Part shown: positions 32,810 to 58,260 of the stretch, in pieces
Position numbering within the stretch: position 1 is the stretch's first letter
Layout: every line of letters starts with the position of its first letter
Origin: Thiohalobacter sp.
Lineage (GTDB): Bacteria > Pseudomonadota > Gammaproteobacteria > Thiohalobacterales > Thiohalobacteraceae
Reading direction: 5' to 3'
Length of the DNA stretch: 60,809 nt
Assembly (NCBI RefSeq): GCF_027000115.1
Contig: NZ_JALTON010000023.1
Span: forward strand, 1 to 60,809
Notes under the pieces: generated by a model
What the model saw: the letters and a program-made list of their open reading frames with translations, nothing else
Database searches by the model: none
Told to the model about the DNA's origin: nothing
Position numbers and translations under genes: made by a program

Positions 32810-34333
32810 TCAGCCCTTCTCGCCACCGTTGTCGGCGGCAGGCGGCTTTTCGGGCGCCAGATAGGTGGTGTCCAGCTCGATGCGGTCACGGCCCATCCGC
32901 TTGGCACGATACAGGGCTTTGTCGACGCGTTCAACGAAGGCACTGCTGGTTTCGCCGGGCTTGTACAGCGCCAGCCCGGCGGAGAAAGTGGGCATGGAAT
33001 AGACCTGGCCGTTGAGGTGCCAACGGATCTCGGCGCAGCGCTGGCGCACCTTCTTCAGCGCCCGCATGGCACCCTCGGCATCGGTGTTCGGCAGCAACAC
33101 GGCGAATTCCTCCCCGCCGTAGCGGGCCACCAGGTCATGGTGGCGGAAGATGGAGAGGATGCTCTTGGCATATACCCGCAACACCTCGTCGCCGGCGGCG
33201 TGACCGAACTTGTCATTGATCTCCTTGAACTTGTCGAGGTCGATCAGGGCCAGAGACAGCGGGAAACCGTAGCGCTGCACACGCGCCACCTCGTCTTCCA
33301 GGCGACGCAGGAAGGCGCGGCGGTTGGACAGGCCGGTGAGTTCGTCGGTCAGACTGAGCAGGCGGACCCGGGTCAGCTCGTCGGTGAGCTGGCGGCTGTC
33401 CGACTCCACCATCTGCAGGTACTGGTAGGTCTTGTCGAGCTTGTCGGCCAGTTCGTGGTGGCCTTCCATCAGGCGCTCGATCTCGTGGACCAGGGTTGAG
33501 CGCAAGGTCTCCAGATCGGTGACGTCCGAGGCCTGGCGGACCTCGTTGAGCACCACCTCGAGCAGAACGCCGAATTCCTGGTTCTGGCTGATGGTGTCCA
33601 GCACCCGGTGCGCCAGCCCGGCCTGGATCTCCTCGATGTCCCGACGGCGGGCATCGATCTCGTGCTGTACCACCGAGGAGGACACCAGTTCCTCGCCCAA
33701 TTCCTCGGGACTGAGCGGCTCGTAGTCCAACACCGTCTCGCGACGCAGGGTGGCCGGCTCGCGGCCTTCCTCGACTTCCATGGTCGGCGATTCGAGCCGG
33801 TCGGCAGTCGTGTCCCTGATCGCGGCGGATGGGTCCACCTTTTCTTCCGGCTCCGCCGGCTGCTGGGCCGAGGATCCGACGGCCGGCTCCGCAGCCGGCG
33901 CCGTACCGGTTTCCAGGGGTGCCTCGACGATACCGAAGGCGGCCAGCAGGGGGCGCACCGCGTCACGCAGAGTGGATTCCTGCACCCGGTCGAGGCGGGA
34001 GATCTGGTCGGCGTAGACGTCGATGTAGTCGCGCAGGGCGTGCAGGTCCGGTAGGCTCAGCGGCGGCTGCAGACGCCCGGCCAGCAGCTTGACCTGCACC
34101 TGGAGCGGCGAACCGGGATGGAGGTGCTGGGCATAGACATCGAGCAGGCTGTTGGCGATACCGGCGTAGGCCTGCTGCACGCCGAGATGGGTCTCGGTCA
34201 TCTCGCGCAGCATGCGTTCCACCTGGCGATAGATCACGGCGCCCGCTGGCGACTGGCGCAGGGCATCCAGAAGCCGCAGGAGCTTGCGCGCCGAAACGGC
34301 CTCGAACGAATCTGTATCTCCTGAACCAGCCAT
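32810..34333 (-). CDS. GGDEF diguanylate cyclase with uncharacterised helical N-terminus
   Basis: About 507 residues. The N-terminal about 150 residues are mostly helical with no recognised domain. An acidic, Pro/Glu-rich linker (about 150-200) and a long helical segment (about 220-325, including EIERLMEGHHELADKLDKTY) lead to a C-terminal GGDEF domain. The catalytic motif is GGEEF near 405, with RHHD just upstream forming an intact RxxD I-site. It is predicted to be an active, product-inhibited c-di-GMP synthase in the cytoplasm; no membrane segment is seen. The ATG at 34333 follows GGGAG by about 14 bases; a GTG 13 codons upstream is possible. Confidence 0.88.
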   Translation of the reverse strand: MAGSGDTDSFEAVSARKLLRLLDALRQSPAGAVIYRQVERMLREMTETHLGVQQAYAGIANSLLDVYAQHLHPGSPLQVQVKLLAGRLQPPLSLPDLHALRDYIDVYADQISRLDRVQESTLRDAVRPLLAAFGIVEAPLETGTAPAAEPAVGSSAQQPAEPEEKVDPSAAIRDTTADRLESPTMEVEEGREPATLRRETVLDYEPLSPEELGEELVSSSVVQHEIDARRRDIEEIQAGLAHRVLDTISQNQEFGVLLEVVLNEVRQASDVTDLETLRSTLVHEIERLMEGHHELADKLDKTYQYLQMVESDSRQLTDELTRVRLLSLTDELTGLSNRRAFLRRLEDEVARVQRYGFPLSLALIDLDKFKEINDKFGHAAGDEVLRVYAKSILSIFRHHDLVARYGGEEFAVLLPNTDAEGAMRALKKVRQRCAEIRWHLNGQVYSMPTFSAGLALYKPGETSSAFVERVDKALYRAKRMGRDRIELDTTYLAPEKPPAADNGGEKG

Positions 34334-34917
34334 CAGAGAAATGGTTCTCCCGCACACCACATCCCTGTGCACAGAACGCGGACCCGGGGCCCGTTCCTTG
34401 TTTGAATGGCGTTGCGCTGTCGGTTGCTGCCGCGGGATGGGCCGTCGAACGGCACCTGTCCCCCCACTCGCCTCTCTCGCCTGCGAGCCGCCCGCTTGTT
34501 ATCGGGATCGTCCGGGCTCGTCGCAAAACCTGTGGTGTTGTTGCTTGTCATGACCGCACCCCGCGATATGCGCGGAGACAGGTACCGTTAAGGTACCCCG
34601 AAGCGGCGCGCCACCACAAACCGGGAACGCCACTGTAAACAATCCCGACACATCTGCCGACCGGAAGCGGACAAGGGCCGCAACCGCCGCGGCCGACCGC
34701 CCCCCTTACCCGATGAACGTGAATTTTTTAATATATTTCAAATATTTATTCATTTTCCATTACTACGCTCGAGCGGTTGGAAAAGACGGGCAAAGCAGCA
34801 TCTTGTAAGCCTATTCTTACAGAAGATGACTGAAATTCAGGAGGGTTGATATGTGAAAAACGATGGGAAGGTCGGCAAAAAGTGCCGGTTTTTTGGCGAC
34901 GAAATGTCGGCGGCAGA
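34334..34917. other. Intergenic region between the HDOD and diguanylate cyclase genes
   Basis: A 584-base gap. It holds a dyad GGTACC-gttaa-GGTACC (34581-34597), a strongly A+T-rich stretch (about 34720-34775), an inverted repeat TGTAAG/CTTACA (34804-34821), a strong AGGAGGG (34839-34845) and a plus-strand terminator-like hairpin (34873-34894). A 72-codon minus-strand frame ending on the cyclase start was judged weak. Confidence 0.6.
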
Positions 34918-49741: not shown

Positions 49742-50031
49742 GCGTCCCGCACGCTTGCGGGCGATGCCCCGGGGACGCAAGGGACGGGCCGCGGGTTAGG
49801 GAAATCCGACAAGGCCCGGCAATCCTGTCGGCGATTCTTACATTCCCGCAAAAACCCTGAACACTGTGGCAGACATTCATTAAAACAACGAGTTGAAGCC
49901 CCACCGGGGCGCTCGACGATCCTGACGGCAGGGTCCATCTCGTCGGGATTCATTACAGTTCTGTGGCCCACGTTCGGCGTCCATCATCCGACCTGTCAGC
50001 AACCCACTGATCAACAAGGGATTCGAAAAAC

Positions 50032-50047
50032 TGGCACGCCCCTTGCT
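50032..50047 (+). promoter_or_regulatory. Sigma-54 promoter of a candidate small RNA
   Basis: TGGCAC (50032-50037), GCCCC, TTGCT (50043-50047) is a full match to the -24/-12 consensus with correct spacing. Predicted transcription start is near 50058. Confidence 0.72.
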
Positions 50048-50057
50048 CCACCCTGTC

Positions 50058-50231
50058 GCAACGCACCGCGGCGGTGCCGACAAGAATAGCGCGTTGGAGG
50101 AGTCACCCGGCAACATCGAATAACAACCAAAGGGTCGAGCTGGCCGGATGCCGACAACAACAGCAACAGGCAATGTCCAGCATCTGAAATTGAACGGCGG
50201 TTCCGGTGGAGGAGTCCGCCGTTTTTGTTTT
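50058..50231 (+). ncRNA. Candidate sigma-54-dependent small RNA with GGA loops and A-rich motifs
   Basis: About 174 nt between the sigma-54 promoter and an intrinsic terminator. Visible structure: hairpin GCACC/GGTGC (50063-50077); GTTG (50093-50096) with CAAC (50111-50114) exposing GGAGGA; a GGC-CGGAT-GCC stem-loop (about 50142-50152); and the terminator hairpin whose loop also exposes GGAGGA. A-rich tracts AATAACAACCAAAG (50119-50132) and ACAACAACAGCAACA (about 50154-50168) resemble Hfq-binding ARN/Crc CA motifs. The design recalls either CsrA/RsmA-titrating RNAs or sigma-54-dependent CrcZ-type RNAs. No ORF with a ribosome-binding site is present. Expression is inferred, not shown. Confidence 0.6.
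50193..50231 (+). terminator. Intrinsic terminator of the candidate small RNA
   Basis: AACGGCGG (50193-50200) pairs with CCGCCGTT (50216-50223); 15-base loop; tail TTTTTGTTTT (50222-50231). The stem also lies 36 bases beyond the ffh stop on the opposite strand and may serve both transcripts. Confidence 0.8.
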
Positions 50232-57922: not shown

Positions 57923-58042
57923 TCATGAGAGCCGAGGCACACCCAGCCGGTCGAAGAAGGCGATCGGCATGACGGCGTTCAGCAGGTAGCGGCTGTTACG
58001 CCACCACCGCCGGCTGTTCGCCGCAATGCCCGCCGGATCTAC
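57923..58042 (-). pseudogene. Group II intron reverse transcriptase/maturase, C-terminal fragment
   Basis: Forty codons at the end of an intron-encoded protein remain: AGIAANSRRWWRNSRYLLNA, then MPIAFFDRLGVPRLS and stop. The RRWWRNS and FFDRLGVPRLS signatures are typical of the maturase/X-D/En end of group II intron proteins. Upstream sequence is unrelated, so the reverse transcriptase domains are lost and no mobility is expected. Confidence 0.72.
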
Positions 58043-58260
58043 ACCGCTTCGCCTTGGCCACGAGCGCTTCGCGGTTTTTGGCCCGCTCGCCCTACCCGGC
58101 AGTGCCTTGTATCCGGTTCCTGTTCGTCGGCTCGCGGTTTACGCCCCACGCCTCCTCCCCACGGTCAGTCACCCTCCCGCAGTTGCGCTTCGCTTCACTC
58201 GCCGTGACCAGCTCGTGGCGGGACTTGCACCCGCAGGGGTGCGCCCATGCTGGGCGCACC

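Follow-up and report, generated by a model that had tools for sequence, protein, structure and literature searches.

A conserved sigma-54 transcription unit beside ffh in Thiohalobacter: a probable PrsR-controlled RNA and candidate Hfq decoy

A predicted small RNA gene between rpsP and ffh

The window analysed here is a stretch of 60,809 nucleotides from a Thiohalobacter sp. contig (NZ_JALTON010000023.1). It contains a predicted RNA gene of ~170 nt, flanked by rpsP (PF00886) and ffh, both on the opposite strand. The RNA converges with ffh, ends ~34 nt short of its stop codon and overlaps no gene. The features of the locus are as follows.

49826-49842 (+): distal PrsR-type box TGTCGGCGATTCTTACA at -232, matching the 17-nt motif of Haft 2006; position kept in relatives
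49941-49957 (+): proximal PrsR-type box CGTCGGGATTCATTACA at -117, backed by its kept position and the strict pattern counts
50000-50011 (+): IHF-like site CAACCCACTGAT at -58
50032-50047 (+): sigma-54 promoter, -24/-12 element TGGCACGCCCCTTGCT, perfect consensus, kept in relatives
~50058-50231 (+): small non-coding RNA; start predicted from promoter geometry, end set by the end of the terminator; unit kept in relatives
50096-50104 (+): GGAGGAGTC element with the conserved GGAGGA
50105-50135 (+): tentative ACCC...GGGT hairpin with an A/C-rich loop
50119-50132 (+): A-rich tract AATAACAACCAAAG with one AANAANAA inside, a single copy that is not significant by itself
50153-50169 (+): A-rich tract GACAACAACAGCAACAG, of AAN/ARN type by sequence
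50192-50226 (+): intrinsic terminator, -20.7 kcal/mol (z -4.0), with CGGCGG..CCGCCG kept in most members

An earlier note on this DNA had described a full -24/-12 match followed by a strong terminator with no coding frame between them, and all of this is borne out. The promoter is the only exact sigma-54 match in the window, and its strict form, TGGCACGN4TTGCW, occurs four times in the whole 2.65-Mb genome, against none for the reversed control. Taken alone, such a match is only suggestive and no proof, since matches with at most one mismatch are no commoner in the window than expected by chance (2 against 2.3); it is the conservation and the upstream boxes that make this promoter convincing. 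None of 200 shuffled sequences folded as well as the terminator. A hidden coding frame was considered and rejected, as the relatives share no ORF with a ribosome-binding site inside the RNA. The genome itself encodes rpoN, and from these sequence features the region 50032-50231 is almost certainly a real sigma-54 transcription unit.

Conservation of the unit

Within the family (Thiohalobacter group), nine genomes gave the full ffh locus. In eight of them the rpsP-ffh interval has the sigma-54 element, no ORF and a terminator; next to the ffh of the remaining one, G010, no rpsP was detected. The earlier note had staked its reading on the conservation of promoter and terminator in relatives, and such conservation is what was found. 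Among 80 ffh loci of titled genomes the unit is present at four, namely those of Thiohalobacter thiocyanaticus Hrh1 (L054) and of the three MAGs FCS_Gamma_055 (L045), SZUA-226 (L050) and ES_M_Gamma_051 (L075). It was not seen at the remaining ones, where rpsP was located in only about half, so that their absence is only partly covered. The unit also adjoins ffh in G367, from another family, while look-alike units, which could be convergent rather than homologous, lie away from ffh in G090, G375 and G176, genomes of three further families. Outside the conserved elements the RNA diverges quickly among members. The family-level counts given below are pooled over 15 members, which are related and are not independent trials.

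Several other matches were discarded. The first DNA search gave one further match, in G004; it is a pilin gene's sigma-54 promoter, so the likeness is between promoters and this is no homologue. When 369 genomes were scanned for sigma-54 plus GGAGGAGT, matches at glutamine-synthetase leaders in one genus were judged a chance combination of promoter and Shine-Dalgarno sequence, and the weak model matches L177, L185 and L188 lack the architecture.

Upstream boxes of the PrsR type

Two copies of a 17-bp imperfect palindrome, YGTCGRNATNNYTTACA, lie upstream of the promoter, at -117 and -232. The proximal box is found at -115 to -119 in 13 of the 15 members and at -104/-105 in the other two, and the distal one at -229 to -243 in 10 of the 15 and at -219 in G004. 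G375 and G176 have a single box each, the L050 contig ends too soon to show a distal box, and a count by eye puts the second box of G090 ~102 bp further up. The distance between boxes is usually 114-117 bp, or ~11 helical turns. The left half reads TGTCG, with the C kept in 27 of 27 boxes and the G in 26 of 27. Across 11 family genomes the strict box pattern has 26 occurrences and, read backwards, none; the combination of box and promoter is found 28 times among 369 genomes of the class (control 0). Between the boxes and the promoter, YAANNNNYTGWT is found at -57/-58 in 6 of the 15 members, against 0.3 in shuffles, for a pattern that was picked after looking.

A motif found before proteobacterial PEP-CTERM genes has been described as 17 nt long, ending in TTTACA and sometimes repeated, with a sigma-54 site 32-92 nt past it; the response regulator PrsR matched its phylogenetic profile (Haft 2006, PMC1569441). 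In Aquincola, a PEP-CTERM gene has been shown to depend on RpoN (PMC9850573). The boxes of the window agree with this description, being 17-nt motifs that end in TTTACA/TTACA, the proximal one 74 nt before TGGCAC. In related genomes, several of the box sites are followed by a sigma-54-like promoter and a gene for a secreted protein; PEP-CTERM models match six proteins encoded next to boxes, and three of the six exceed the VPLPA-CTERM cut-off. PrsR itself passes the curated cut-off in each of the 12 carriers tested (the family's eight, G090, G375, G176 and G367), and the present genome has two paralogues with 710 and 703 bits for TIGR02915 (cut-off 502.6). Their positions are C21:60147 and C61:6671, and two above-cut-off copies are likewise found in most family genomes.

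Because of the box match, the boxes at PEP-CTERM genes and the presence of PrsR in the carriers, the RNA appears to belong, as a non-coding member, to the exosortase regulon of PrsR and sigma-54, and its control by PrsR, through predicted binding at this locus, is highly probable. The boxes thus name a likely regulator that the earlier note did not have, and they are of the PEP-CTERM/exosortase type, so the nutrient status proposed there as the input is not indicated. The RNA genes have the box, the spacer and the sigma-54 promoter in common with PEP-CTERM genes (pepA of Aquincola and those of Haft 2006), but their product is non-coding, most have two boxes 114-117 bp apart, and their spacer is 73-76 nt, whereas that of PEP-CTERM genes is mostly 61-64 nt. 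PrsR-box promoters (L193-L220) form these same two spacer classes, about one helical turn apart, and the A-rich RNAs found by the box plus promoter pattern all fall in the 73-76 nt class. Two PrsR-box transcripts, those of L207 and L216, are short, meet a terminator-like hairpin early and are not A-rich; they are further candidate small RNAs. At L138, L139 and L142, a small conserved ORF (MNTSVRKEIKGQRVTARPVFKGGVRPAYWLGAVNDHTLP..., ~55 aa) stands behind a PrsR box and a sigma-54-like promoter and is possibly a small protein of the exosortase regulon.

The only other strict PrsR-type box in the genome, the perfect TGTCGGGATTGTTTACA, is also in the window, at 34634-34650 (-). A GGDEF diguanylate cyclase gene (32810-34372, -) begins ~260 bp downstream of it, and the stretch between box and gene shows no convincing sigma-54 site. 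Nearby, at 34840-34900 (+), AGGAGGG precedes a start-stop ATGTGA, after which comes a terminator-like GCCGGC..GCCGG-T6 hairpin; this is a possible short transcript or minimal ORF.

A-rich tracts and comparison with CrcZ

The six pockets on the distal face of Hfq take up AAN/ARN repeats, and CrcZ, which is RpoN-dependent, uses motifs of this type to sequester the protein (PMC8266614). The A-rich tracts that the earlier note had likened to such motifs are present and stand up at the level of the family. The Hfq distal-face motif AANAANAA occurs 47 times over the 15 members, against 6.7 +/- 3.0 in dinucleotide shuffles, none of 1000 reaching the observed count. In control DNA downstream of ffh from genomes without the promoter it occurs 8 times, with 6.9 expected. 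The window copy alone has one AANAANAA, which is not significant (124 of 1000 shuffles). In the 11 members that were folded, 61-92% of the AANAAN bases are predicted to be unpaired, and the repeats are most numerous in the cross-family look-alikes G375 (11) and G176 (7), which lack GGAGGA. A gene for Hfq is present in the genome. AAN enrichment was also used to look for possible targets among PEP-CTERM leaders, and the result (7 against 3.5, 38 of 500 shuffles) was not convincing.

With CrcZ, CrcY and CrcX of the Pseudomonadaceae, the RNA has in common a sigma-54 promoter paired with an NtrC-type response regulator (here probably PrsR), an ORF-less, terminated transcript and several AAN-type Hfq motifs; several unpaired AAN/ARN motifs are found in the family, not in the window copy alone. 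It differs in its regulator sites (palindromic PrsR boxes instead of the non-palindromic CbrB subsites of CrcZ), its locus (rpsP-ffh or others instead of downstream of cbrB), its length (~170-250 nt against ~400) and its added, conserved GGAGGA. Rfam, at gathering and relaxed thresholds, gave nothing meaningful for the window copy, which has no match to the CrcZ model (RF01675) up to E 5, and the best scores in relatives (L211 21.2, L075 19.6 and L217 19.5 bits) are far below the cut-off of 95. Given these scores, the regulator sites, the locus and the roughly halved length, the RNA is not a member of RF01675 as judged by sequence. Elsewhere in the window, at 58006-58178 (-), there is a match to a group II intron domain (RF02001, 71.9 bits).

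The GGAGGA element and alternative functions

Of the internal elements, GGAGGA is the best conserved, present in 12 of the 15 members with 15 copies against 1.1 expected. Its conservation is not explained by an Hfq decoy, and together with the other strict box of the genome, which has no adjoining sigma-54 site, and the single boxes of G375 and G176, it counts against that function. It could be accounted for if the RNA were an Hfq-dependent base-pairing sRNA under the same PrsR/sigma-54 control, in which the A-rich tracts load Hfq, also encoded in the genome, and GGAGGAGUC or another segment seeds on CU-rich mRNA sites. Against this stand G375, G176 and L045, from which GGAGGA is absent but where the AAN repeats are retained, and the fast divergence of the rest, and we regard base pairing as rather unlikely.

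The same element might be read as a target of CsrA, which is encoded, and the RNA as a CsrA-titrating molecule of the RsmX/Y/Z type, or a dual CsrA/Hfq sponge, within the matrix regulon. RsmA contacts with CrcZ have been reported in Pseudomonas, and GGA is somewhat frequent (59 against 47.6 expected in 11 members). The earlier note had seen GGA exposed in loops; GGAGGA is indeed there, but its sites are only partly unpaired (mean 0.56) and the GGA of the terminator loop is not conserved. The RNA as a whole is not unusually structured (z -0.63), and the ACCC...GGGT hairpin is missing from the minimum-energy fold of the window copy, although a similar CCC...GGG clamp is seen in alignment A3 and, by eye, in others. 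Small size, a terminator and GGA motifs are shared with RsmX/Y/Z and CsrB/C, but the RNA has no repeated ANGGA hairpins, is AAN-rich and has a sigma-54 promoter. The CsrA core ANGGA is absent from the window copy and rarer than expected over the 15 members (11 against 18.3), which disfavours the RsmX/Y/Z-type titration put forward earlier. The GacA upstream box of such RNAs is TGTAAGN6CTTACA; no box of this kind was found here, where the boxes read TGTCG and belong with a sigma-54 promoter. A CsrA sponge is therefore improbable.

Still less probable is a leader-like relic, that is, a PEP-CTERM promoter and leader whose gene was lost, or a short-peptide gene. The promoter type is shared and GGAGGA stands where PEP-CTERM mRNAs carry their ribosome-binding site (L135, for example), but the unit is kept over several families without a common ORF, always terminated, and its AAN pattern is far above chance. 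It is hardly credible that the RNA works in cis on the convergent ffh transcript, whose stop codon is so near, as an antisense or read-through element, since the ffh ORF is not overlapped and the units of G090, G375 and G176 lie away from ffh. The antisense orientation to the ribosomal block given in the earlier note is correct, but an action on that block is unlikely because the look-alikes at other loci keep the architecture.

A possible RNA arm of the exosortase regulon

The function that we favour, by a modest degree, is that of a CrcZ-like Hfq decoy wired to the control of the surface matrix. It is built on the observed promoter, boxes, terminator, conservation, AAN enrichment and genes for PrsR, RpoN and Hfq, from which we infer transcription, PrsR binding, Hfq sequestration and the effect on targets; the weak scores of three relatives with the CrcZ model also speak for it. 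PrsR, the response regulator of the PEP-CTERM/exosortase system, would bind the boxes 117 and 232 bp upstream, and sigma-54 RNA polymerase would transcribe the RNA when PrsR is bound, possibly assisted by IHF bending the DNA. The AAN/ARN triplets in the unpaired tracts would then occupy the distal face of Hfq, as those of CrcZ do. Induction of the exosortase regulon would in this way lower free Hfq, and the Hfq-dependent control of other mRNAs would be relieved or rewired.

CbrAB-CrcZ has been described only in Pseudomonadaceae (PMC8871633). The wider proposal, that the exosortase surface-matrix regulon has a dedicated RNA arm in several gammaproteobacterial families, in the form of a PrsR/sigma-54-driven, CrcZ-like Hfq decoy whose wiring is separate from CbrAB-CrcZ, is a tentative one, which we hold to be nearly as probable as not. 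No PrsR-controlled RNA was found in the open-access literature on PEP-CTERM and small RNAs.

To our knowledge, only protein genes have been assigned to the PrsR regulon, and CrcZ-type decoy RNAs have been described for Pseudomonadaceae and carbon control alone. A direct test of the idea is possible, as one carrier, Thiohalobacter thiocyanaticus, is an isolate. If true, the exosortase system would gain a regulatory RNA, A-rich and driven by PrsR, which would suggest how post-transcriptional control is reset by matrix formation, and the combination of sigma-54 with an A-rich decoy would be a design that is paired with different sensors.
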